Source: Ureibacillus thermophilus
GTDB lineage: Bacteria; Bacillota; Bacilli; Bacillales_A; Planococcaceae
Assembly: GCF_004331915.1 (NCBI RefSeq)
Contig: NZ_CP036528.1
Coordinates: 1,544,415 to 1,608,414, forward strand
Direction of reading: 5' to 3'
Length of the DNA: 64,000 nt
This document shows positions 47,425-63,665 of the stretch, piece after piece; within the stretch, counting starts at the first letter, position 1, and every line of letters starts with the position of its first letter. The translations under genes and the position numbers were made by a program. The notes under the pieces are model-generated. The model was not told where the DNA came from, did no database searches, and was given only the letters and a program-made list of their open reading frames with translations.

Positions 47425-47585
47425 GTTTTCTATTAACTAAGTGGAATGCAAATCAAGCTACTTGTTTTACATTTGTTAAATTTGATATTGTTGTTTATTA
47501 ACTTTATGGAATGTAAATACACTTGCGGCAACCGGCACCGCGGTGGCAACAGCCACGTTCTTTATTAACTAAGCGGAATCTAAAT
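47425..47585 (+). CRISPR. degenerate three-repeat mini-array, distinct repeat class
   Basis: Three related 29-bp units lie at 47425-47453, 47490-47518 and 47557-47585. They share TATTAACT early and GGAATG(T/C)AAAT at the end (third copy GGAATCTAAAT), separated by 36 and 38 unique bases. The ending resembles type I-B repeats, not the I-C repeat of the main array. No matching cas6 or other I-B gene is in the window. Confidence 0.65.
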
Positions 47586-47851: not shown

Positions 47852-47948
47852 GTCTGGATTCCACATAGTTAATAGAATAGGTAACAATAATAAGCAATAA
47901 ATTTTTACATAATTAAACAGTTTACATTCCACTTTGTTAAAAGCATTG
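47852..47948 (-). CRISPR. two-repeat mini-array of the same class, antisense
   Basis: On the minus strand, copies at 47948-47920 (TTTTAACAAAGTGGAATGTA core) and 47880-47852 (CTATTAACTATGTGGAATCC core) flank a single 39-nt spacer-length segment. They match the three plus-strand copies upstream but point the opposite way, towards each other across about 270 bp of AT-rich sequence. They end 62 bp before the cas3 start. Confidence 0.55.
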
Positions 47949-48010
47949 TAAATTTGGGCATTTCAGTATGGAGAAAATGGTATATTATGGAGCTAAGGAG
48001 GATGATCGTT

Positions 48011-50416
48011 TTGGAGTTTGTTGCGCATATTCGGCAATCAGATTTAGAGAAACAATTGCTTTCTGAGCATTTAAAAAATGTACAACAAATTGCGGAAAGG
48101 ATTGGAAAAAAGATTGGGATTCCTCATATCACCGGATTGGCAGGGATGTTTCATGATATGGGGAAATATAGTGATGAATTCTTAGAATACTTGGAGGAAG
48201 CCGTAAATAATCCAGAAAATCCACCAAAAAGGGGAAGCATTGACCATTCAACTGCAGGCGGAAAATATTTAATGGAAAATTTTCACGCGAAATATAATTT
48301 TTTAATTGAATGTGTAGCAAATGCGATATTTTCCCATCATGGACAACTAAAAGACATGGTAAATGCAGATGGAGAATCTCCTTTCTTAAAAAGGAAAAAT
48401 AAAGAAGATTTAGAGTATGAAAAAGTAAAACAAAGATTCTTTCAGGAAATGTATTCAGAAGACTACATAAAACAATATGTAAATGAAGCAGCAAAAGAGA
48501 CTTCCATAATTGCAGATAAAATATTGAAAAAAACTGGAAATAATCAAATACTGTTCAAAAAAATTATAAGAAAATACATTACTTATCTTACATTATTTAC
48601 ATTTAGCGCACTTTTGGATGCGGACCGCACAGATTCTAGGCAATTTGATGAAAACACGGTTGAAGAACCATTTGAAAGTGAAAAAATTTTTAATCGGTTT
48701 GCAGAAAAATTAGAAGAGCATTTAAAAACGTTAGAAAAAAAATCAATACAAAATGAAATCACTTTGCTACGTCAACAAATGTCCAACATGTGTTACGAAA
48801 AATCGAAATTACCGACGGGGATTTATACCCTGTCGATTCCGACTGGCGGAGGAAAAACCCTTGCAAGTCTTCGTTTTGCATTAAATCACGCTTTAAAACA
48901 TTCAAAAGAACGAATTATTTATGTTGTACCTTTCACAACCATCATTGAACAAAATGCTGAAGAAGTTCGCAATATTCTGGATGCTAAAGACTATTTATTA
49001 GAACATCATAGTAATGTTATTGAAAATGAGTTGGATGATGAACATCTTAATTTTGAAAACTATCAAAACTACAAAAAAATCAAACTAGCAAAAGATAACT
49101 GGGATGCTCCAATCATTTTTACAACAATGGTACAATTTTTAAATACATTTTATAGTGGGAAATCAAGAAATATCCGAAGGCTTCACAATCTGACCAATAG
49201 TATCATCATATTTGATGAAGTGCAATCAGTGCCTGTCAATTGCGTAACACTTTTCAATGAAGTTTTAAATTTTCTGAAGGATATTGGAAATTCAACGGTA
49301 TTACTTTGTACAGCAACTCAGCCAGCATTACAGAATGTAGAAAAAAATATTACCGTAGATGGAGAATTGATTGATGATTTATCAAGGATTATGAAAGCTT
49401 TTAAACGTACGAACTTGATAAATATGGTTAAAGATGAAGGATGGACGACAAAAGAACTTGCTGACTTTGTTAATCAACAACTAAATGAAGTCAATAGTGT
49501 ACTTGTAATTCTTAATACAAAATCCGTTGTAAAAAAACTGTATGATGAATTTTCAAATAGTGGAATAAAAACAGTTCATTTAAGTACTTCTATGTGTCCA
49601 AAACACCGTAAACAGAAGATTTATGAGATGAGAAAATGTTTGAAGAATAAGGAAAAAATTGTATGCATTAGTACACAATTGATTGAAGCTGGTGTCGATG
49701 TTAGTTTTGAATGTGTCGTTCGATCTTTGGCCGGTTTAGATTCCATTGCACAAGCAGCAGGCCGATGCAATCGGCATGGGGAAGTGGCGAGTAGAGATGT
49801 TTATATTATCAATCATAAGGAAGAAGTATTAAATAATTTGCCAACAATCAAGAAAGGCGGATACGAATCGAAAAAGATTTTAAGAGATATTGAAATGGAT
49901 CCAACGCTTTTTGACGGAGAATTATTGTCTGAAAATGCAATGACGCTTTATTTTAGAAATTTTTATCAAGAATTTAAACCTTATTTGGATTATCCAACGC
50001 CGGTAGGAAAAAATATTTATGAAATGTTATTGGGAAACAATTCGGAGTTTCTTGAAGAATTTAAAGAAGAACAAGCTATCTGGATGCACACAAGTTTTGA
50101 AACAGCTTCTAAATATTTTGAAGTGATTGATTCCAAAACCCATTCAGTTTTGGTTCCATATGATAAAGGTAAAGCATTAATTTCTGAATTATACAGCGCT
50201 GGCGGAATTGAAAATGTTACTACATTTTTAAAAGAAGTACAGCAGTATATTGTTAATGTGTTCGACCATGATTTAAATCGGTTAATAAAAAATGGTATAG
50301 TTGAAAAAATAGAATTTAAGAATTACTCATTATTTGTTGCAAAAGAATCTGCATATGATGATCAATACGGTTTAAGTGTGGAAGGAGAGGCAAGTTTATC
50401 ATTATTAGAATATTGA
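48011..50416 (+). CDS. cas3: CRISPR-associated nuclease-helicase Cas3 (type I-C)
   Basis: About 801 residues. The N-terminal HD nuclease shows MFHDMGKYSDE (His48-Asp49) and IDHSTAGGKYL; the SF2 helicase has PTGGGKTLAS, DEVQSVP (motif II), LLCTATQPAL and the C-terminal QAAGRCNRHGE. It unwinds and degrades DNA marked by Cascade. I choose the TTG eight bases after AAGGAGG; two upstream ATGs lack usable spacing. It has its own upstream region and ends at a terminator, separate from the cas5c operon. Confidence 0.95.
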   Translation: MEFVAHIRQSDLEKQLLSEHLKNVQQIAERIGKKIGIPHITGLAGMFHDMGKYSDEFLEYLEEAVNNPENPPKRGSIDHSTAGGKYLMENFHAKYNFLIECVANAIFSHHGQLKDMVNADGESPFLKRKNKEDLEYEKVKQRFFQEMYSEDYIKQYVNEAAKETSIIADKILKKTGNNQILFKKIIRKYITYLTLFTFSALLDADRTDSRQFDENTVEEPFESEKIFNRFAEKLEEHLKTLEKKSIQNEITLLRQQMSNMCYEKSKLPTGIYTLSIPTGGGKTLASLRFALNHALKHSKERIIYVVPFTTIIEQNAEEVRNILDAKDYLLEHHSNVIENELDDEHLNFENYQNYKKIKLAKDNWDAPIIFTTMVQFLNTFYSGKSRNIRRLHNLTNSIIIFDEVQSVPVNCVTLFNEVLNFLKDIGNSTVLLCTATQPALQNVEKNITVDGELIDDLSRIMKAFKRTNLINMVKDEGWTTKELADFVNQQLNEVNSVLVILNTKSVVKKLYDEFSNSGIKTVHLSTSMCPKHRKQKIYEMRKCLKNKEKIVCISTQLIEAGVDVSFECVVRSLAGLDSIAQAAGRCNRHGEVASRDVYIINHKEEVLNNLPTIKKGGYESKKILRDIEMDPTLFDGELLSENAMTLYFRNFYQEFKPYLDYPTPVGKNIYEMLLGNNSEFLEEFKEEQAIWMHTSFETASKYFEVIDSKTHSVLVPYDKGKALISELYSAGGIENVTTFLKEVQQYIVNVFDHDLNRLIKNGIVEKIEFKNYSLFVAKESAYDDQYGLSVEGEASLSLLEY

Positions 50417-50447
50417 AGCTGGCAACTCCCAAATTGCCAGCTTTTTC
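50416..50447 (+). terminator. cas3 terminator
   Basis: AAGCTGGCAA (50416-50425) and TTGCCAGCTT (50434-50443) form a perfect 10-bp stem with a T run. It isolates cas3 from the cas5c operon and also places a hairpin at the far end of the antisense crRNA-like RNA. Confidence 0.92.
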
Positions 50448-50504
50448 TAAAATATATAATATAATATTTTTTTCAATCCACGTTAGTTTTTATGAACTAA
50501 CGAC
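50444..50504 (-). ncRNA. crRNA-like regulatory RNA (CreR-like), antisense between cas3 and cas5c
   Basis: Minus strand 50504-50470 mimics the CRISPR repeat: 5' GTC, a hairpin GTTAGTT/AACTAAC with a 6-nt loop, then GTGGATTGAAA. The true repeat is GTC, GCACCT/AGGTGC with a 6-nt loop, then GTGGATTGAAAT, so flanks are kept while the stem is replaced with compensating bases. The pseudo-spacer starts at 50469 (AAATATTATATTATAT). An extended -10 (TG-T-TATACT, 50519-50511) would start transcription at the repeat's first base. The pseudo-spacer matches 50545-50560 next to TTC at the cas5c promoter. Regulation is inferred. Confidence 0.75.
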
Positions 50505-50510
50505 TAGAAA

Positions 50511-50519
50511 AGTATAACA
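50511..50519 (-). promoter_or_regulatory. extended -10 of the crRNA-like RNA
   Basis: Minus strand TGTTATACT: TG, one base, TATACT. No good -35 is seen at 16-18 bp, as is usual for extended -10 promoters. Predicted +1 is about 50504-50505, the start of the pseudo-repeat. Confidence 0.6.
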
Positions 50520-50541
50520 TAATATTAAGAACAAATATTAA

Positions 50542-50591
50542 TTCAAATAATATATAATATCTTGACTTGTTGTTCTGGAATATATTACTAT
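50542..50591 (+). promoter_or_regulatory. cas5c operon promoter with an embedded pseudo-target
   Basis: TTGACT (50562-50567), 18 bp and TACTAT (50586-50591) precede cas5c by 45 bp. Immediately upstream, TTC (50542-50544, the type I-C PAM) is followed by AAATAATATATAATAT (50545-50560), matching the antisense RNA's pseudo-spacer at 14 of 16 positions. Cascade bound there would cover the -35. Confidence 0.7.
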
Positions 50592-50635: not shown

Positions 50636-51361
50636 ATGGAGAAAATAAGGAACCAAATAGAATTTGAAGTTTATGGAAATTACGCATTATTTACAGATCC
50701 ACTAATGAAACTCGGTGGAGAAAAATTGACGTATCAAATTCCAACCTATCAAGCATTAAAAGGGATAGTGGAGAGCATCTATTGGAAACCATCGATTATT
50801 TGGTACATTGATGAAATTCGAGTAATGAATCCGATTCGAATGGAGTCAAAAGGCATTCGTCCTCTTGATTATGGTGGAGGAAATACACTAGCAAATTATA
50901 CTTATTTGCGAGACGTTAGATACCAAGTAAGGGCTCATTTCGAATTTAACTATAATCGAAAGGATCTAGAAGGAGATTTTAACGAGCATAAACATCATAA
51001 CATTGCAAAACGCTGTGTAAAAGCAGGTGGCCGTCGAGATGTGTATTTAGGAACACGAGAATGCCAAGCATATGTCGTTCCTTGCGACTTTAATGAGGGA
51101 AAAGGTCATTATGACGACATTGAAGAAATTCATTTTGGGACGATGATACATGGTATTAATTATCCGGATGAAACCGGAAAGAAAGTTATGGAAGTTCGAC
51201 TATGGCAGCCAGTTATGAGGCATGGCATCATCAAATTTATTCGACCTGAAGAGTGTTCTTTAATTCGGCCAATTCGTGAATATCAAACAAAAAAATTTTT
51301 ACTACATGAAAATATGCAGCCTGTGGAAACATTGTACAATGATTTGTTTGGGGGTGAGTAA
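50636..51361 (+). CDS. cas5c: Cas5c (Cas5d) crRNA-processing endoribonuclease
   Basis: A 241-residue RAMP protein, N-terminal [15 protein letters not shown]. Type I-C lacks Cas6; Cas5c cuts the repeat hairpin base and stays on the 5' handle. A candidate catalytic Lys/His cluster lies in [14 protein letters not shown], with an upstream Tyr in TYQALKG, matching the Tyr-Lys-His set known in the family. GGAAGGAG precedes the ATG. First gene of the cas5c-8c-7c-4-1-2 operon; its stop abuts the cas8c GTG. Confidence 0.94.
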
Positions 51362-53266
51362 GTGAGCTATCTATACGCTTTATATAAAACTTATAATAAT
51401 AATCTCGATAAAGTCGGCGTTATCGAAACGAAAAATACCGGAAAAAAAACAATTGAATATACTTTGCTTCCGATTTCCCATACAACTCAAACAGCCCATA
51501 TTGAGGTAACGGTAACACCTGATGGAGAATTTTATGATGCAAGGGTAATAAAAGAAAATACAATATTACCGTTCACAGAGGAATCTGGTAGCCGCGCAGG
51601 TACGAATTACGTGCCCCATGTACTTCACGATAAACTGATGTTTGTTGCAGGTGATTATGTAAAATATACTGGTCAAGAAGATAAAGCTTCATGTTTTGAA
51701 GATTACATTCAACAATTAAAAGATTGGTGTGAGTCAGAATATAGTCATCCTGATATTGTTGCGATATACAATTATGTGAAAAAAGGAACGCTTATAGAAG
51801 ACTTGGTGCAAAAAAATATTTTGTATTTGGATGAACAAAGAAAGCTATTAAAAAAATGGGATTCAAATCGAGGAAAAGAAAAACCAGAAATTTTTTCTGC
51901 TGTGACAGGTGATCAAGAGAGCGCCTTCGTTCGATTTGATGTTCATTATCCAAATCAAGTGCACGACCATGTTTGGAATAATAAGGAAATCTATGATTTG
52001 TACAGTAGATATTACGATACAAAATTAAGAGATAAAGATCTTTGTTACGTAAGCGGGGAATATTTACCTGCAGTTGAGCGTCATCCGAACAAATTGCGGA
52101 ATTCTGCAGATAAAGCAAAATTAATCTCTGCAAATGATACGAGCGGGTTCACATTTAGAGGTCGATTTCTCAATTCCAGGGAAGTCACAAATATTAGTTA
52201 TGAGGTTTCCCAAAAAGCACATAATGCTCTGAAATGGCTTATTGATAAACAGGGAAAGACAGTAGATGGTCGGGTTTTTCTCGCATGGGGATTGAGAAGC
52301 CCTAATATCCCACAAGCAACAGAAGACGTTTTAGAAGACTTAAACAGCTATTTACCAAATCTTTTTGAAATTGAATCAAGCAATAATCTATCTGGTACTA
52401 GAGAAGCTTTAGCAAGAAAATATAATCAATTGCTATCTGGGATCAATAAAAATTTTACAGTAGATGAAAATGATGAAGTTTATGTGATGACTCTTGATGC
52501 TGCAACCCCGGGAAGACTGGCAGTACTTTATTTTCGAAATCTTCATATTAATGTTTATTTTGAAAGATTAAAAGAATGGCATATAGGGTGCAGTTGGAAG
52601 CATCGTCGGAAAGTAGATGGAGAATGGAAAGAATTTTATGGTTCCCCCTCATTTCAAACGATTGCAAAATATGCCTATGGGCCAAGGCCTAGTGATAAAT
52701 TAATAAAAACTGTTATGGAACGTCTTCTTCCTTGCGTCATTGATGGACGAGCCATTCCTTTGGATATAGTTCAAAATGCCATTCAGCGTGCATCTAACCC
52801 GGTAGCATTTAATGAAGAGTGGGAATGGGAACAAGCACTCAGTGTTGCTTGTTCGTTGGTAAAAAAACACTATGAAAAGGAGGAGTATTCGATGGCTTTA
52901 GACAAAACAAATACTGATCGCGATTATTTATTTGGCCGATTGCTTGCTGTTGCGGATGTACTTGAAAGAAATGCATTAAGTGAAGCAGATCAAAAACGTG
53001 CAACGAATGCCGTACGATACATGAATGCATTTGTAAGAGCTCCATTAAGAACTTGGCATACGATTCACCAAAATTTACATCCTTATTTAATGAGGTTAGG
53101 TTCAAATGCAAGAAGATATACGGACTTATTCCAAGAAATCAGCGACTTATTTAATCCAAATGATTATAATAATAAACCTTTAACAGGTAAATATCTATTA
53201 GGTTATTACAGCCAAAGACAAGATTTATATACAAAAAAAGAAAAAGAAGGAGTAGATGAAGAATGA
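51362..53266 (+). CDS. cas8c: Cas8c (Csd1) large Cascade subunit
   Basis: A 634-residue Csd1-family protein, the PAM-reading large subunit of type I-C Cascade. Landmarks include LCYVSGEYLPAVERHPNKLR, a TSGFTFRGRF segment and ALKWLIDKQGKTVDGRVFLA. GTG start directly behind the cas5c stop. Its C-terminal 124 codons are preceded by a strong internal ribosome site and probably also make Cas11c. The stop overlaps the cas7c start as ATGA. Confidence 0.94.
   Translation: MSYLYALYKTYNNNLDKVGVIETKNTGKKTIEYTLLPISHTTQTAHIEVTVTPDGEFYDARVIKENTILPFTEESGSRAGTNYVPHVLHDKLMFVAGDYVKYTGQEDKASCFEDYIQQLKDWCESEYSHPDIVAIYNYVKKGTLIEDLVQKNILYLDEQRKLLKKWDSNRGKEKPEIFSAVTGDQESAFVRFDVHYPNQVHDHVWNNKEIYDLYSRYYDTKLRDKDLCYVSGEYLPAVERHPNKLRNSADKAKLISANDTSGFTFRGRFLNSREVTNISYEVSQKAHNALKWLIDKQGKTVDGRVFLAWGLRSPNIPQATEDVLEDLNSYLPNLFEIESSNNLSGTREALARKYNQLLSGINKNFTVDENDEVYVMTLDAATPGRLAVLYFRNLHINVYFERLKEWHIGCSWKHRRKVDGEWKEFYGSPSFQTIAKYAYGPRPSDKLIKTVMERLLPCVIDGRAIPLDIVQNAIQRASNPVAFNEEWEWEQALSVACSLVKKHYEKEEYSMALDKTNTDRDYLFGRLLAVADVLERNALSEADQKRATNAVRYMNAFVRAPLRTWHTIHQNLHPYLMRLGSNARRYTDLFQEISDLFNPNDYNNKPLTGKYLLGYYSQRQDLYTKKEKEGVDEE
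52892..53266 (+). CDS. cas11c: Cas11c small subunit from an internal start in cas8c
   Basis: Inside cas8c, AAGGAGGAG lies six bases before an in-frame ATG at 52892, a near-perfect Shine-Dalgarno. It would yield 124 residues starting MALDKTNTDRDYLFGRLLAV, almost all helical, matching the size and origin reported for Cas11c in other type I-C systems. Expression is inferred from the ribosome site. Confidence 0.8.
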   Translation: MALDKTNTDRDYLFGRLLAVADVLERNALSEADQKRATNAVRYMNAFVRAPLRTWHTIHQNLHPYLMRLGSNARRYTDLFQEISDLFNPNDYNNKPLTGKYLLGYYSQRQDLYTKKEKEGVDEE

Positions 53267-54126
53267 CAGTATTAAATCACAAAATTGATTTTTCGGTAAT
53301 TTTTTCTGTGGAAAACGCTAACCCTAATGGTGACCCACTAAATGGAAACAGACCACGGCAAAATTTTGATGGCTATGGGGAAGTATCCGATGTTTGTTTA
53401 AAACGGAAAATTCGTAATCGACTTCAAGATATGGGAGAAAGCATTTTTGTGCAATCCAGTGATCGTACAGTAGATGGATTTACTAGTTTAAGAGAACGAG
53501 CGGATCATAATGAAAAATTAAAAGAGTTAAGCAAAGGGAAAAAAGCGGATCCGGTCTTATATGAAAAAGCTGCATGTGAATCATGGTTTGATGTGAGAGC
53601 ATTTGGACAAGTGTTTGCTTTTAAAGCAGAAAAGAAAGGTGAGGGGGTATCTGTTGGCATACGAGGACCTGTTTCTATTCATCCAGCAATTAGTATTGAT
53701 CCTATCAATATTACAAGCATCCAGATTACAAAAAGTGTTAATTCAGAACCTGGAGAGAAAAAAGGCTCGGATACAATGGGAATGAAGCATAGAGTAGATT
53801 TTGGTGTGTACAGATTTAACGGCAGCATTAATACACAGTTAGCAGAAAAAACAGGATTTACGAATGAAGATGCAGAAAAATTAAAACAGGCGCTCATTAC
53901 TTTATTTGAAAATGATGCTTCTTCCGCTCGTCCGGAAGGTTCTATGGAAGTGCACAAAGTCTATTGGTGGGAGCATAATTCCAAACTTGGCCAATATTCA
54001 TCTGCAAAAGTTCACCGTTCGTTAGAGATTAAACCAAAAGTAGATAATCCGAAATCTTTCGAAGATTACGAGATGATATTGAATGAACTTGAAGGATTGA
54101 AAGTGGATGTTTACGACGGAAAATAA
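53263..54126 (+). CDS. cas7c: Cas7c (Csd2) Cascade backbone
   Basis: A 287-residue Csd2-family RAMP protein with the signature ENANPNGDPLNGNRPRQN near the N terminus and FDVRAFGQVFAF further on. Multiple copies line the crRNA spacer and kink it every sixth base, the feature used to interpret the pseudo-target here. Its start overlaps the cas8c stop, and its 3' end overlaps cas4 by 20 bp. Confidence 0.95.
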   Translation: MTVLNHKIDFSVIFSVENANPNGDPLNGNRPRQNFDGYGEVSDVCLKRKIRNRLQDMGESIFVQSSDRTVDGFTSLRERADHNEKLKELSKGKKADPVLYEKAACESWFDVRAFGQVFAFKAEKKGEGVSVGIRGPVSIHPAISIDPINITSIQITKSVNSEPGEKKGSDTMGMKHRVDFGVYRFNGSINTQLAEKTGFTNEDAEKLKQALITLFENDASSARPEGSMEVHKVYWWEHNSKLGQYSSAKVHRSLEIKPKVDNPKSFEDYEMILNELEGLKVDVYDGK

Positions 54127-54769
54127 TGAATCAGATTATTTGATGTTGTCCGGTATTCAACATTTTCAATTTTGTCAGCGACAGTGGGCTTTAATTCATA
54201 TTGAGCAACAATGGGAAGAAAATTTAAAAACAATTGAAGGGCAATATATTCATAAAAAAGCGAACCAACCATTCTTACGAGAAAAACGAGGGAATAAATT
54301 AATCGTGCGGGCGTTACCGATTTGCTCGCACGAATTAAAAATCAGTGGGATATGTGATGTTGTCGAATTTGTAAGACATCCAAGCGGAATTACTTTACAA
54401 GGTGAGGTAGGAACATTTATCCCGATTCCCATTGAATACAAACGAGGCAGACCGAAGAAAGGTAAAGAAGATGTTGTTCAACTTGTAGCCCAAGCGATGT
54501 GTTTGGAAGAGATGCTAGCTTGCGATATTAAAGAAGCCTATATCTATTATCATGAAATTAAACATCGAGTATCAATAGAGATTACTGAGGAACTTCGTGA
54601 AGAAGTAAGAAAAATGATTAAATTGATGCATCAATATTATGAAAATAGATATACCCCAAAAGTAAAGACAGGGAAGTTCTGTGAAAGTTGTTCTTTAAAC
54701 AATATTTGCTTACCTGAATCCTTAAACAGAGAACCAGTTCGAAAATATATGGAGAGATTTTTGGAATGA
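54107..54769 (+). CDS. cas4: Cas4 spacer-acquisition exonuclease
   Basis: A 220-residue Cas4 of the RecB nuclease fold. One Fe-S Cys lies in FQFCQRQWALIH and three in the C-terminal CESCSLNNICLP; the nuclease core has the Asp of SGICDVVEF, the Glu-Tyr-Lys of IPIEYKRGRP and the Gln of DVVQLVAQAMCLEE. Cas4 selects PAM-bearing prespacers with Cas1-Cas2. The first ATG lies within cas7c; a later ATG 12 codons in is also possible. Confidence 0.93.
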   Translation: MFTTENNESDYLMLSGIQHFQFCQRQWALIHIEQQWEENLKTIEGQYIHKKANQPFLREKRGNKLIVRALPICSHELKISGICDVVEFVRHPSGITLQGEVGTFIPIPIEYKRGRPKKGKEDVVQLVAQAMCLEEMLACDIKEAYIYYHEIKHRVSIEITEELREEVRKMIKLMHQYYENRYTPKVKTGKFCESCSLNNICLPESLNREPVRKYMERFLE

Positions 54770-55797
54770 GGAAATTATTGAATACTCTATATGTTACTAC
54801 TCCTGATGCATATCTTTCGTTAAATGGAGAAAATGTGGTCGTATCAAAAGGGGAAGAGGAAATTGGAAGAATTCCACTTCATAATTTAGAAGGTATTTGT
54901 ACAATCGGCTGGGCTGGTGCAAGTCCTGCATTAATGTATGCTTGTGCTGAAAGAAATATTTCATTATGTTTTTTATCCTCATCTTTTCGATTTCAGACTA
55001 GAGTAATTGGAGAAAGTAAAGGAAATGTAGTATTAAGAAAAACGCAATATCGATTATCTGATGATGAAAAGGAAAGTGTAAAAATTGCAAGGAATTTTAT
55101 TTTTGCTAAAGTTTGCAATCAAAAATGGATATTAGAACGGGCTACTAGAAATTATCCAATGAGAATTGATGTTCCAACATTTAAAGAATCTTCAAAGTAT
55201 TTAACTGAAATTATGAAGAGAATTTTAGTAACAGAAGATTTGGAATTATTAAGAGGGTTAGAAGGACAAGCAGCCAATCGATACTTTCAACATTTTAATG
55301 AACTAATCCTTCAACAAAAAGATGATTTTTACTTTCATGGTAGATCCCGAAGACCACCAATGGATAATGTCAATGCGCTTCTTTCGTTTTCTTATACATT
55401 ATTAGCGAATGAAGTGGCTTCTGCATTAGAAACTGTTGGTTTAGATGCATATGTAGGATTTTTACATCGTGACCGACCAGGTCGCGCTTCTCTAGCATTG
55501 GATATGATGGAAGAGTTAAGATCTGTTATTGCTGATCGTTTTGTCTTAAATTTGATTAATAAAAAAATAATTAACTCAAAACATTTTTTAAAAAAGGAAA
55601 GTGGTGCCGTATTGCTAACAGATGAAGGAAGAAAGATATTTTTGAAAGCTTGGCAGGAGAGAAAACAAGAACAAATTACTCATCCACGATTAAATGAGAA
55701 AATACCCTTTGGATTAGTTCCTTACGCACAGGCTTTATTACTAGCAAGATTTTTAAGAGGAGATGCTGAGGAATACGCACCTTTCTTATGGAAGTGA
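54766..55797 (+). CDS. cas1: Cas1 integrase (type I-C)
   Basis: A 343-residue Cas1c. Metal-binding residues are visible as Glu in LLRGLEGQAANRYF, His in YVGFLHRDRPGRASLALD and the following Asp/Glu in DMMEELR. It inserts new spacers at the leader end. Its ATG overlaps the cas4 stop by four bases. Confidence 0.95.
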   Translation: MRKLLNTLYVTTPDAYLSLNGENVVVSKGEEEIGRIPLHNLEGICTIGWAGASPALMYACAERNISLCFLSSSFRFQTRVIGESKGNVVLRKTQYRLSDDEKESVKIARNFIFAKVCNQKWILERATRNYPMRIDVPTFKESSKYLTEIMKRILVTEDLELLRGLEGQAANRYFQHFNELILQQKDDFYFHGRSRRPPMDNVNALLSFSYTLLANEVASALETVGLDAYVGFLHRDRPGRASLALDMMEELRSVIADRFVLNLINKKIINSKHFLKKESGAVLLTDEGRKIFLKAWQERKQEQITHPRLNEKIPFGLVPYAQALLLARFLRGDAEEYAPFLWK

Positions 55798-55807
55798 GGT
55801 GAGAATT

Positions 55808-56098
55808 TTGTTGGTTTTGGTCACTTATGACGTAAATACTGAAACAAAAGCCGGCCAAAGGCGACTTAGAAAAGTGGCAAAAAAATGTGAAGCTTATGGG
55901 ATACGTGTTCAAAACTCAGTTTTTGAATGTGTCGTGGATCATACTCAATTTTTTCAATTAAAAAAAGAATTGTCAGAAATCATAAATGAAGAGACTGATA
56001 GTTTGCGATTTTATCAGTTAGGAAATAAATATAAAACAAAAGTTGAACATGTTGGTGCTAAGACGACTTTAAACGTAGAGGATCCATTGATATTGTAA
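55808..56098 (+). CDS. cas2: Cas2 (type I-C)
   Basis: A 96-residue ferredoxin-fold Cas2 starting MLVLVTYDVNTETKAGQRRL at a TTG after GAGGTGAGAAT, with the VFECVVDHTQF strand and the C-terminal EDPLIL. It scaffolds Cas1. An earlier in-frame ATG lies inside cas1 and has no ribosome site. Last gene of the operon; 319 bp to the first repeat. Confidence 0.93.
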   Translation: MLVLVTYDVNTETKAGQRRLRKVAKKCEAYGIRVQNSVFECVVDHTQFFQLKKELSEIINEETDSLRFYQLGNKYKTKVEHVGAKTTLNVEDPLIL

Positions 56099-56416: not shown

Positions 56417-59400
56417 GTCGCACCTTACATTAGGTGCGTGGATTGAAATGGTAAAATCAATGCCCTCATAAGAAGCCGCAATCGTCGCACCTTACATTAG
56501 GTGCGTGGATTGAAATTTTGCTGCAAACTACTGCTGATGGAATGCAAAGGTCGCACCTTACATTAGGTGCGTGGATTGAAATAAGTTCTGAAAGGTTAAT
56601 AGTCACTGAGGGGGCGAAGTCGCACCTTACATTAGGTGCGTGGATTGAAATAAAGTCGCGAATATACGATATGTTGCGAACCGGGTCGCACCTTACATTA
56701 GGTGCGTGGATTGAAATGTAAAATGTGCTGGACACCATACCACGCTATAATGTCGCACCTTACATTAGGTGCGTGGATTGAAATAGTTATGGGTAAAGGT
56801 AATTCCTCAGGTGCTGGGTCGCACCTTACATTAGGTGCGTGGATTGAAATTTTTAGGTGATTTACCAATAGTACCATCAGCAAAAGTCGCACCTTACATT
56901 AGGTGCGTGGATTGAAATAATGTGTTCGCTTTTTTTGATAGCAAACACGCAAAGGTCGCACCTTACATTAGGTGCGTGGATTGAAATAGAAGGACGCTAT
57001 ACGTACAACGAAGGAAGCACAGCGTCGCACCTTACATTAGGTGCGTGGATTGAAATAGAAGATGGCAACGATATGATTATCAGTCATGACGTCGCACCTT
57101 ACATTAGGTGCGTGGATTGAAATTCCTGACGAGATTTTAAAAGCATTAACTGATGAAACCGTCGCACCTTACATTAGGTGCGTGGATTGAAATACATGAA
57201 AGTGGCCAAACGAATCGCGCAGCTGGGTCGCACCTTACATTAGGTGCGTGGATTGAAATCATTCATAGCCTCAATCATGTTTTCATCAACATGTCGCACC
57301 TTACATTAGGTGCGTGGATTGAAATACTATTATTAAATGCTGATGGAAAAGATTTATTACGTCGCACCTTACATTAGGTGCGTGGATTGAAATTTTCTAC
57401 TGTGATGATCATAAGCGTAGACGCAAGAAGTCGCACCTTACATTAGGTGCGTGGATTGAAATAAACAAGGGATGGTACCGACAATGAGCCTATTAAGTCG
57501 CACCTTACATTAGGTGCGTGGATTGAAATGATGAATTTAATAAAAAGCAATCCACTTGGAAAGAAGTCGCACCTTACATTAGGTGCGTGGATTGAAATGG
57601 TTCGTATTACTCTTTGTACCAAGTCCGAAATATGTCGCACCTTACATTAGGTGCGTGGATTGAAATAAGAGTGATGTTTGTAGATGCCTTCCCCATATAA
57701 TGTCGCACCTTACATTAGGTGCGTGGATTGAAATAAAAATGGAAGGATGGAAAAGCAACCGTTGCTGAGTCGCACCTTACATTAGGTGCGTGGATTGAAA
57801 TACAGTAAAATCGTTTAGAACTCATCACGATGCTTATGGTCGCACCTTACATTAGGTGCGTGGATTGAAATAAAAGTAGGTTTTAGGGCAATTCCTAAGA
57901 AAGTCGTCGCACCTTACATTAGGTGCGTGGATTGAAATCATTGTAGATATAGCTTTCAAACCCGGTTCCGCCGTCGCACCTTACATTAGGTGCGTGGATT
58001 GAAATATCTTGGATTCGATCAAGGCTTTCCGGGCCAAAGGTCGCACCTTACATTAGGTGCGTGGATTGAAATTCAAATGAACCATCACCTAACCGAATTT
58101 GAAATGTCGCACCTTACATTAGGTGCGTGGATTGAAATTCATCAAGTATCTCGACTCTAAAACCGCCTTCAGGTCGCACCTTACATTAGGTGCGTGGATT
58201 GAAATACGATCGCAAGTGTAAGGTCTTTCTCCCTCAAGGTCGCACCTTACATTAGGTGCGTGGATTGAAATAAGGTGTTGACATCCCGGTTATTTTTACG
58301 ATGAAGTCGCACCTTACATTAGGTGCGTGGATTGAAATTTACTCTGTTGAAGATTGTACAGTTCACGTGCAATGTCGCACCTTACATTAGGTGCGTGGAT
58401 TGAAATACAAGCCATTGGGAACGTAACAAAATCTGCAAAAGTCGCACCTTACATTAGGTGCGTGGATTGAAATTACTCGTGGCCATAGATCCACTAAACA
58501 ACGAGAAAGTCGCACCTTACATTAGGTGCGTGGATTGAAATATTCTGTCATCGATCACATCATCATCAAAGATAAAGTCGCACCTTACATTAGGTGCGTG
58601 GATTGAAATTCTTTGTTTGCGATGGGATAACCTCTGCTGTTGGGTCGCACCTTACATTAGGTGCGTGGATTGAAATAAAACACTTGGGATAAATATGGCG
58701 ACAAAGTTGCGTCGCACCTTACATTAGGTGCGTGGATTGAAATATTATGCATTTGAGATATACCAACCCGGACGCGCGTCGCACCTTACATTAGGTGCGT
58801 GGATTGAAATACAACGATAAGGCTGCTCTTTTGAGTAGCCTTTCGTCGCACCTTACATTAGGTGCGTGGATTGAAATGTTTAAAATGTCAAGAGTTAGAG
58901 ATAAATACTCTGTCGCACCTTACATTAGGTGCGTGGATTGAAATTTTTTTATTTCTTTTAACATTTCAACAATTGAATCGTGTCGCACCTTACATTAGGT
59001 GCGTGGATTGAAATATAAGCTGTATGTCCTTGTGGCACGTCACTAAACGTCGCACCTTACATTAGGTGCGTGGATTGAAATCATTGCGGAAGGCAGAAAA
59101 ATTGCATGCGTTGAAAGTCGCACCTTACATTAGGTGCGTGGATTGAAATCATACATTTGTAGATGTTGATTTAATTGTGTCCCGTCGCACCTTACATTAG
59201 GTGCGTGGATTGAAATTTGGGTGTTGGGGAATTTGATAAAGATGAATATAGTCGCACCTTACATTAGGTGCGTGGATTGAAATTGTGGATATTGAAGATT
59301 TAAAACGAGATGCAGAAGTCGCACCTTACATTAGGTGCGTGGATTGAAATAAAAATGAACACAGTTGAAGAACTTGAAGCGAATCGTCGCACCTTACATT

Positions 59401-62400
59401 AGGTGCGTGGATTGAAATTTTGATCGCAAACAAGTATCTGTAAAATGGGTAGAGTCGCACCTTACATTAGGTGCGTGGATTGAAATTTGCCTCAACAGGT
59501 AGCAAAACACTTGAACTAAAGTCGCACCTTACATTAGGTGCGTGGATTGAAATATTCTCCTGCTGTAACTGCTCCACTTTCTCCACGTCGCACCTTACAT
59601 TAGGTGCGTGGATTGAAATGAAAAATCGTAATCCAAAATTATTAGCACAATAAGTCGCACCTTACATTAGGTGCGTGGATTGAAATATCCTTTACTTCAC
59701 CGCCTTTCACGCTGTCTGCTCGTCGCACCTTACATTAGGTGCGTGGATTGAAATCTGTATCGGTTTGCCCTCTACTTGCTTGATGCCCGTCGCACCTTAC
59801 ATTAGGTGCGTGGATTGAAATCTCCCTTCGTCATTTATTGATAAAAGAATAACATCGTCGCACCTTACATTAGGTGCGTGGATTGAAATCAGGACCCGGA
59901 TTCTGGAGATGTGCAAACGGCATATGTCGCACCTTACATTAGGTGCGTGGATTGAAATAATAATTTCTGTTTTTGTAGAGGCGCCCGTTAAATGTCGCAC
60001 CTTACATTAGGTGCGTGGATTGAAATATGAAGTGGTTTAATCGAGGTTTTAACCGGTTGAAGTCGCACCTTACATTAGGTGCGTGGATTGAAATCTCCAA
60101 GCGCTCCGAAAGTCGGCAGGACGTTGGTGTCGCACCTTACATTAGGTGCGTGGATTGAAATAACTAATACCTGATACGGTTTATTGTCGTACTCGTCGCA
60201 CCTTACATTAGGTGCGTGGATTGAAATATTCGAACTTGTAGCAAACGGTAACAACGTCAAAGGTCGCACCTTACATTAGGTGCGTGGATTGAAATGTTAA
60301 ATTAGCGGACCCAGTAACATTCGAAAATCATGTCGCACCTTACATTAGGTGCGTGGATTGAAATCTAGAAACTGGAACTCTCCAGACCGTTTGAAATGGT
60401 CGCACCTTACATTAGGTGCGTGGATTGAAATAATGGAGGTGTTAGTGTTATGTCATCTACTAAAATGTCGCACCTTACATTAGGTGCGTGGATTGAAATA
60501 CCCAAAAGAATACTAATATATCGGTGTAAATCCTCGTCGCACCTTACATTAGGTGCGTGGATTGAAATTGTCACAGTTGATGTAGAAGATCCAGCTATCC
60601 ATGGTCGCACCTTACATTAGGTGCGTGGATTGAAATAGAGAAAGTGGAAAAATGCTGACTTTGAATAAAAGAGGTCGCACCTTACATTAGGTGCGTGGAT
60701 TGAAATAATTAGTTTAGTTGGTGGTTTGCACAACGAAGAGGTCGCACCTTACATTAGGTGCGTGGATTGAAATAAAAACTCTTTAGCCTCAATTTCAAAA
60801 CCTGTCCGTGTCGCACCTTACATTAGGTGCGTGGATTGAAATCCTCCAACAAATGCTTGTGTTCAAAGATGTTACCGTCGCACCTTACATTAGGTGCGTG
60901 GATTGAAATTCATACGCTCCAGATATTCTGTCATAGCCATAGTGTCGCACCTTACATTAGGTGCGTGGATTGAAATTGTCGGCAAGAGTGCAGTAGCCCT
61001 CTTTGCCGACGTCGCACCTTACATTAGGTGCGTGGATTGAAATTAAAATATATCCGATGATAAAATGATAAAGCGCATGTCGCACCTTACATTAGGTGCG
61101 TGGATTGAAATAATAATTTTTCTTGAACCCTGTTACGTTAATGTTGTCGCACCTTACATTAGGTGCGTGGATTGAAATCTCTATAACAGGTGTACCGTCT
61201 TTGTCGTAATACGTCGCACCTTACATTAGGTGCGTGGATTGAAATACATAATCCCCCCCACACAGATTAGTACCACGTGCCAGTCGCACCTTACATTAGG
61301 TGCGTGGATTGAAATTAACCCAGTCACGAAAGTTTGGATATGATTTTATGTCGCACCTTACATTAGGTGCGTGGATTGAAATTCGATAAACTGATTCATA
61401 AAGCGTTTTTCCGAATCGTCGCACCTTACATTAGGTGCGTGGATTGAAATAAATTCCAACGCTCACGAGCTTTTTCAAGAGCCGGTCGCACCTTACATTA
61501 GGTGCGTGGATTGAAATTTGTGGGTACTGTTCGATAAAGACAGTCAAAATCGTCGCACCTTACATTAGGTGCGTGGATTGAAATCGTGATAACGGTTATA
61601 AATTTTATTATGATTTAAGTCGCACCTTACATTAGGTGCGTGGATTGAAATTGATAAAAACAAAGAACATTTTATTAACATGTCAATGTCGCACCTTACA
61701 TTAGGTGCGTGGATTGAAATAACTATAACAATTTTTTATACACTCATATATAAGTGTCGCACCTTACATTAGGTGCGTGGATTGAAATATATTCGGCGTT
61801 TTTAACGTCCGTTAAAAGCATGTCGCACCTTACATTAGGTGCGTGGATTGAAATGATAATTTGTCCGAATATGTGCCGCTATGGAGCCAGTCGCACCTTA
61901 CATTAGGTGCGTGGATTGAAATTTCCGCAACTGCAACAATTGTGGAAGAAAAAACTGTCGCACCTTACATTAGGTGCGTGGATTGAAATACCGTACAGAT
62001 CCCAGAAGATAAAGTGGACAAAAGTCGCACCTTACATTAGGTGCGTGGATTGAAATTTCTCTTGTCATCTCTTTCAAAACTCTCCACTGATTGTCGCACC
62101 TTACATTAGGTGCGTGGATTGAAATTCGCTAATTCCAACTTCGTTATACCCAATTCCTTGTCGCACCTTACATTAGGTGCGTGGATTGAAATCCGTAACC
62201 TAATAATACTCGCCCGAATTTTGTCTGCGTCGCACCTTACATTAGGTGCGTGGATTGAAATACATCTACCCCGAAAGGTGCATGTAGTTTACGGTCGTCG
62301 CACCTTACATTAGGTGCGTGGATTGAAATTTAAAGTAAGTAAAAGGAGTGAAATAGGATGTCTAGTCGCACCTTACATTAGGTGCGTGGATTGAAATATT

Positions 62401-63665
62401 TTTGGACCTCCTTCGTGTTTTTAGCGGCACCAGTCGCACCTTACATTAGGTGCGTGGATTGAAATTTAGCAAAAGCGACTGAATTTTTTAAAATGCAACG
62501 TCGCACCTTACATTAGGTGCGTGGATTGAAATTCACGACCAGTGCCGCTTACAAACACAGGCTTACGTCGCACCTTACATTAGGTGCGTGGATTGAAATT
62601 TTTTTGATTTCACTCTCAATCGCCATGTAAGCTAGTCGCACCTTACATTAGGTGCGTGGATTGAAATAAATAGGTATGTGTAACCACCAGAACGTAATCT
62701 GGTCGCACCTTACATTAGGTGCGTGGATTGAAATCGAAATCAAAGAAAATGTACTATCCCGGTGTGTAGTCGCACCTTACATTAGGTGCGTGGATTGAAA
62801 TATCTGCTATTGACATAGCTCTACCTGCTTCTGTCGTCGCACCTTACATTAGGTGCGTGGATTGAAATTCGTAGTTGATTCAGGCGTATTAACGCCGATT
62901 AAGTCGCACCTTACATTAGGTGCGTGGATTGAAATCTTTCATTATCCCTGTTGTTATGAGCGCTCCGAAGTCGCACCTTACATTAGGTGCGTGGATTGAA
63001 ATAATCTGCAAGTCGGTGAAAATAAAATCGGCTTTAGTCGCACCTTACATTAGGTGCGTGGATTGAAATGGCTATATCGCATCAAACATCACAATCCGTA
63101 AAGGTCGCACCTTACATTAGGTGCGTGGATTGAAATAATCATAGCAGTCGTTTTACCGTCACCTTGACGACGTCGCACCTTACATTAGGTGCGTGGATTG
63201 AAATGATGGTTGGTATTTTAGCGATTAGCCAATTTGCTGTCGCACCTTACATTAGGTGCGTGGATTGAAATTTTTGTTAAGATGATATTTTCGTAGCCTA
63301 ATGGGGTCGCACCTTACATTAGGTGCGTGGATTGAAATTTTGCTAAATGCTCCATATATTAATGCAGTTACAGTCGCACCTTACATTAGGTGCGTGGATT
63401 GAAATACAATGAATCTGTTTGATAAATGTGCCAAGAAATGGTCGCACCTTACATTAGGTGCGTGGATTGAAATAACAGTTCTTTCCTTTCTTGTGTTATC
63501 TGTTCTCGTCGCACCTTACATTAGGTGCGTGGATTGAAATTATCATGGCAGTCGTTTTACCGTCACCTTGACGAGTCGCACCTTACATTAGGTGCGTGGA
63601 TTGAAATCATATTTTCTACCTCCACACTTTAATTAATTTATTGTCGCACCTTACATTAGGTGCGT
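56417..63665 (+). CRISPR. type I-C CRISPR array, 107 full repeats plus one truncated
   Basis: The 33-bp repeat begins GTCGCACCTTAC and ends GTGGATTGAAAT; every copy I read is identical. Full repeats run from 56417 to 63607 with a 66-70 bp period and spacers of about 33-38 nt, giving 107 spacers. The 108th copy (63643-63665) keeps only its first 21-23 bases before IS66 sequence. Stem GCACCT/AGGTGC, loop TACATT. Small frames through the array are artefacts of the repeat. Confidence 0.98.

Follow-up and report, generated by a model that had tools for sequence, protein, structure and literature searches.

A candidate CreR-type crRNA-like autorepressor between cas3 and cas5c of type I-C CRISPR-Cas loci, predicted by comparative sequence analysis

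The question raised by this locus is whether the gap between cas3 and cas5c of a type I-C system encodes an RNA that turns Cascade back on its own operon. An earlier note on this DNA had proposed as much, placing a crRNA-like antisense RNA in the gap and its target at the cas5c promoter. The window (the whole stretch of DNA analyzed, 64,000 nt) holds the complete type I-C locus, comprised of cas3, a 219-nt gap, cas5c-cas8c-cas7c-cas4-cas1-cas2, and the array:

47954 to 50416, plus strand: cas3
50636 to 51361, plus strand: cas5c (Cas5d family)
51362 to 53266, plus strand: cas8c/csd1
53263 to 54126, plus strand: cas7c/csd2
54107 to 56098, plus strand: cas4, cas1c, and cas2
56417 to 63665, plus strand: CRISPR array, 107 exact 33-nt repeats and one cut-off final repeat (63643 to 63665)

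The final array repeat stops after the stem and is without a handle. Upstream of cas3 there are also five CRISPR-like repeats, degenerate and belonging to a different class (..ATTAACTAAGTGGAATGTAAAT), located at 47425-47585 on the plus strand, where the copies are spaced 65 and 67 nt apart, and at 47855-47943 on the minus strand. One more exact copy of this repeat occurs elsewhere in the genome, in which a single cas1 was seen, and no convincing PAM-plus-seed match to the spacers of these repeats was found nearby. The features of the cas3-cas5c gap are as follows:

50416 to 50443, minus strand: 12-bp hairpin after the guide, overlapping the end of cas3
50454 to 50469, minus strand: guide, positions 1-16 (AAATATTATATTATAT), with position 1 at 50469
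50470 to 50504, minus strand: pseudo-repeat, consisting of GTC, a rewritten 8-bp stem, and an 11-nt handle (TGGATTGAAAA)
50511 to 50519, minus strand: extended -10 (TGTTATACT) of the predicted small RNA
50542 to 50544, plus strand: TTC motif (PAM)
50545 to 50560, plus strand: target (AAATAATATATAATAT)
50562 to 50591, plus strand: promoter-like site TTGACT-18-TACTAT before cas5c, a consensus match

The pseudo-repeat was found where the earlier note had placed it, with the flanks of the array repeat retained around an unrelated stem (CGTTAGTT/AACTAACG, in which the 8 bp include the C of GTC and the first G of the handle). The stem differs from that of the array repeat and the handle is intact; the element is 35 nt long with A as its final letter, vs. 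33 nt and a final T in the array (GTCGCACCTTACATTAGGTGCGTGGATTGAAAT). The string GTGGATTGAAA occurs 108 times in the window, 107 of these being the plus-strand array copies and one a minus-strand copy at 50471-50481, and thus a stand-alone repeat-like element with a crRNA handle lies beside the cas operon, as is characteristic of CreR. The extended -10 that had been described ahead of the pseudo-repeat is likewise present at 50519-50511; no good -35 partner was seen for it by eye, and from its position transcription is predicted to start near 50504. Folding of the minus-strand RNA yields the repeat stem and the 12-bp hairpin (z-score -5.1, with none of 200 shuffles equally stable). This hairpin begins at guide position 27, and its T run (50442-50446) is present on the plus side only, with none on the minus side.

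Directly after TTC, which is the I-C PAM as given in an excerpt of PMC7913775, the target agrees with the guide at 14/14 positions outside of 6 and 12, which are the only mismatches within the 16 nt; past position 16, two of the next 14 positions match. Each of these features, including the decay, had been read from the letters in the earlier note, as had the placement of the target against the -35 of cas5c: the promoter-like site (a consensus match) has its -35 starting one base beyond the target, and is the sole plus-strand site of its kind between the target and cas5c. A promoter scan returned seven sites on both strands, vs. a shuffle mean of 2.6, and for this reason the promoter-like site alone is weak evidence. 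The guide thus has limited complementarity to a predicted cas promoter (again by consensus match) beside an I-C PAM, a second hallmark of CreR. A chance test of the shuffled-sequence type was also favorable to the earlier proposal: among 20,000 order-1 Markov versions of the 219-nt gap, with the guide held fixed, none gave 14/14 after TTC, 4 gave at least 13, and 41 gave at least 12. The runner-up TTC site for this guide within the window scores 11/14, and the target string TTCAAATANTATATNATA has a single occurrence in the 3.0-Mb genome, the site before cas5c. The guide-target match in the window is far from chance.

We surveyed the DNA upstream of cas5c in 116 distinct loci: the window, 79 named genome records, and 36 other relatives. 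The sources were 28 loci from 151 relatives, 80 of 490 relatives in genome_contigs, and 30 places listed for 398 class genomes, and duplicates were merged by a shared 100-nt stretch. Two loci were left out: L028, where a second, divergent Cas5 containing a stop sits next to an array, and L060 (9 nt upstream). L025-L027 (Cas5 relatives, 29-37% identical) were kept and count as negatives. Minus-strand handles with up to two mismatches were sought in the 1,200 nt preceding cas5c, yielding 63 handles spread over 57 loci. Each handle-phased guide was scored against every TTC-preceded site on both strands over 14 positions; because positions 6 and 12 were left unscored, their behavior is an independent result.

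A module scoring at least 12/14 occurs upstream of cas5c in 41 of the 116 loci (29 at 14, 10 at 13, and 2 at 12), and shuffled guides reached this level in 20 of 6,300 trials. Such scores were obtained for 40 of the 45 handles with zero or one mismatch, vs. 1 of 18 with two mismatches. When the PAM rule was dropped, TTC preceded 39 of 39 sites scoring at least 13. Pairing at 14/14 is found in 29/41 guides with their own targets, vs. 8/1,582 swapped pairs with a different target; at 13 or better, the corresponding counts are 39/41 and 99/1,582. The 31 named loci among the 41 span 13 genera, as judged from the titles of their records, and there are 30 distinct 14-letter targets. Of the 37 distinct guide/target pairs, 35-37 match at each of positions 1-5, 7-11, and 13-15 even as the letters vary, and 28 match at position 16. 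The co-variation of pseudo-spacer and target that the earlier note had anticipated for related I-C loci is therefore borne out by the survey, the swap control, and the distinct pairs alike; the result is strongly positive, and the predicted pairing is kept in related loci.

The two positions left unscored behave differently from one another. Position 12 matches in 12 of the 37 pairs and appears neutral, whereas position 6 matches in 3 and appears under-matched. From position 17 to 30, the matches in the 41 loci are no more than background (159/574). With eleven further elements (described below; position 6 matched in one, position 12 in four), position 6 is matched in 4 and unpaired in 44 of 48 elements, an excess of unpaired cases over background; the shortage of matches has a binomial value of 0.0009 against 159/574, a calculation that ignores relatedness. 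Positions 6 and 12 are the bases flipped out by type I-E Cascade, as stated in an excerpt of PMC5965380.

The anatomy of the element is also recognizable in relatives. A stem of at least 4 bp, led by GTC or ATC and ending at the handle, is present in 37/41 loci, and is absent by this rule in L057, L070, L095, and L106. Stem pairs 2 to 5 vary on both sides across the element loci, and the stems average 5.3 bp with 3.2 G-C pairs, vs. 7.2 and 5.2 in 41 array repeats from this set. The handle ends in A in 32/41 elements, and array repeats end in T in 36/41. The best -10 starts 11 nt before GTC in 20/37 elements. Among the 35 plus-strand cases, 22 showed a -35 with five or six of six letters (a 24-position search with no shuffle baseline). 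Of the 35 plus-strand targets 31 were measurable, and the predicted start lies 33-44 nt from TTC in 23 of these and 60-84 nt from it in the other 8, distances that place the target between two divergent predicted promoters. In 33/41 loci a hairpin begins 14-22 nt into the guide, about where pairing ends; the window differs, in that its hairpin begins at position 27. Six of the 41 loci have a minus-strand target, four of these hundreds of bases from cas5c. An alternative layout is seen in L062, L128, L143, L165, and L166, in which a minus-strand target starts 12-19 nt before the start of the cas5c match.

No such element was found in 75/116 loci within the 1,200 nt scanned upstream of cas5c. 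Elements are present in 41/59 loci with a gap of at least 130 nt and in 0/57 with a shorter gap; since the element needs room, this association is partly trivial and is not used as proof. Among the 18/59 roomy gaps in which the element is missing, two (L018 and L084) have a handle with a score of 11. In L044, L063, and L118 the element is absent, yet a hairpin (ACCTATC..GATAGGT) that follows the upstream ORF in many element-bearing loci is kept just after that ORF, which suggests that the element has been lost. A handle-free search of the last 900 nt of the 75 element-less loci listed six hits, all at 13/14, which we judged to be chance; three of them consist of inverted repeats lying side by side, and no repeat-like flank was apparent by eye in any (no shuffle baseline).

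Further elements were located outside of the gap. In 6 of the 48 named loci without a gap element (L033, L047, L068, L071, L079, and L100), an element scoring at least 13 lies 2.3-3.9 kb upstream of cas5c (no shuffle baseline). A stricter scan, confined to the 500 nt preceding the detected start of cas3, recovered L033, L068, and L100, with a maximum of 11 among 2,950 shuffled guides; it missed L047 and L071, and L079 has no detected cas3 ORF. The L071 element is a plus-strand one, located ∼3.9 kb before the cas5c match; its target, which includes a -10-like GGTATAAG, is just upstream of its own pseudo-repeat, a layout that suggests direct self-repression. Loci of the wider phylum and family, scanned separately within 1,200 nt upstream of cas5c, were positive in 3/31 (L143, L165, and L166), of which 30 are informative because L163 is without upstream DNA. 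Longer stretches from 20 phylum loci added L182 and L186 at 13 or better (shuffles reached at most 11 in 1,750); L143 was not re-found in that scan because of its 500-nt radius. L143, L182, and L186 belong to the same phylum as the window, outside of its class. A search for phage-borne mimics used one exact pattern, the commonest Bacillales form, and returned two places in viral_contigs, judged a coincidence because both fall within one 445-aa ORF shared by related viral contigs.

Taken as a whole, the element very probably encodes a CreR-type crRNA-like autorepressor RNA that would aim Cascade at its own operon, as predicted from sequence. Transcription would start near the GTC of the pseudo-repeat, and Cas5c would cut below the stem, leaving the 11-nt handle; an excerpt of PMC5965380 describes I-C repeats as processed by Cas5c rather than Cas6, with a handle of this length. 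The RNA, without a second repeat and in most relatives with a hairpin 14-22 nt into the guide, would load Cascade, which would form a short 16-bp R-loop at the cas5c promoter, bind without licensing Cas3, and block RNA polymerase at cas5c. Free Cascade would thereby limit its own synthesis, a proposed negative feedback, a brake that would lift in the presence of anti-CRISPR proteins or of crRNAs made from the large array. There are precedents for binding of this type in the portions of three papers that we cite: in one I-B system, guides of up to 26 nt repress with no cleavage (PMC10551041); in I-F1, truncated complexes or shortened R-loops fail to trigger Cas2/3 (PMC7296934); and in a strain with cas3 deleted, I-C Cascade acts as a transcriptional repressor (CRISPRi; PMC7913775).

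The same RNA-guided Cascade could instead raise cas5c transcription, or control the guide's own promoter in place of cas5c. The 16-bp target does end one base before the -35, and in 23/31 loci TTC is found 33-44 nt ahead of where the small RNA itself is predicted to start, both of which would suit such a role. Once bound, Cascade should nonetheless extend across the -35, the I-C complex without Cas3 acts as a repressor in the assay reported in the cited text of PMC7913775, and the targets of L062, L128, L143, L165, and L166 are on the minus strand, less than 20 nt from the cas5c start; we consider activation, or control of the guide's promoter alone, unlikely. It is very unlikely that the pseudo-spacer and target are simply an inverted AT-rich operator pair for an ordinary repressor protein, with the repeat-like handle incidental. 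On the DNA both 16-mers are indeed inverted AT-rich copies, flanking the region between two divergent promoters, but a protein site needs no handle, stem, or TTC, and here the guide phase is fixed after a crRNA handle, TTC precedes all 39 unbiased sites, mismatches fall at 6 and 12, the asymmetric pairing ends after 16, and the letters differ between species. Chance likeness of AT-rich stretches beside a decaying leftover array repeat is scarcely credible, for even though guide and target are nearly all A/T, degenerate repeats do occur near arrays, and some relatives have decayed handles, it is contradicted by the comparative result, with 0/20,000 simulated gaps, 20/6,300 shuffled guides at 12 or better vs. 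41 loci, and co-variation.

Beyond autorepression by a CreR-type RNA, we tentatively offer a broader reading, possible but rather less than an even prospect, in which a one-repeat, hairpin-ended guide RNA may serve as a standing I-C Cascade homeostat across Bacillota. An R-loop between two divergent promoters would allow one bound complex to shut both cas5c and the guide's own promoter, and position 6 may be kept unpaired by selection as a binding-only safety.

Type I-C is among the commonest CRISPR subtypes, according to an excerpt of PMC7684278. Because dozens of species each have a different guide and a matched target, evolution has in effect written out the pairing rule (TTC; positions 1-5, 7-11, and 13-16), one that matched changes can test. 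Through the module, cas expression would respond both to crRNA load (the array here has 107 repeats) and to attack by anti-CRISPRs. Its elements supply natural short guides, seemingly built for binding without cleavage.

A 2023 study by Shmakov on CRISPR-derived RNA regulatory elements reportedly described stand-alone repeats with spacers that partly match cas promoters, mostly in type I. Among the papers listed in our literature search we recognized none that describes CreR in I-C; two key primary papers fell outside its reach. The earlier note's premise that crRNA-like regulators are known in other CRISPR systems is correct, since CreR autorepression is on record for I-B, I-E, and V-A in the available text of PMC13131331, and is stated more loosely, for type I and V-A, in that of PMC12737573. 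As in those accounts, a crRNA-like RNA with partial complementarity to a cas promoter would bring about autorepression, here as a prediction. The element differs from them in belonging to type I-C, where Cas5c rather than Cas6 processes repeats (PMC5965380, in part), and in its single repeat, its 16-nt match with position 6 nearly always unpaired, and, in most loci, the hairpin in the place of a second repeat. Similar to CreA of CreTA (I-B and I-F), it has a degenerate repeat and a guide partly matching a promoter; CreA uses the PAM TTC in haloarchaea and exists in one- and two-repeat forms, as described in an excerpt of PMC9458426. CreA, however, represses a toxin, whereas the matched site here precedes cas5c, and the cas3-cas5c gap showed no toxin unit whose promoter could be targeted. 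The Racr RNAs, a class of phage RNA anti-CRISPRs that includes RacrIC1, are likewise solitary, with an I-C-like repeat in that case (excerpt of PMC10651486). Unlike these phage-borne decoys, which are encoded by viruses or plasmids, the element is chromosomal, between cas3 and cas5c on a single 3.0-Mb contig, with a guide kept by co-variation. By its sequence the element appears to work like CreR, a kind of regulator already known, of which the I-C form would be a variant.
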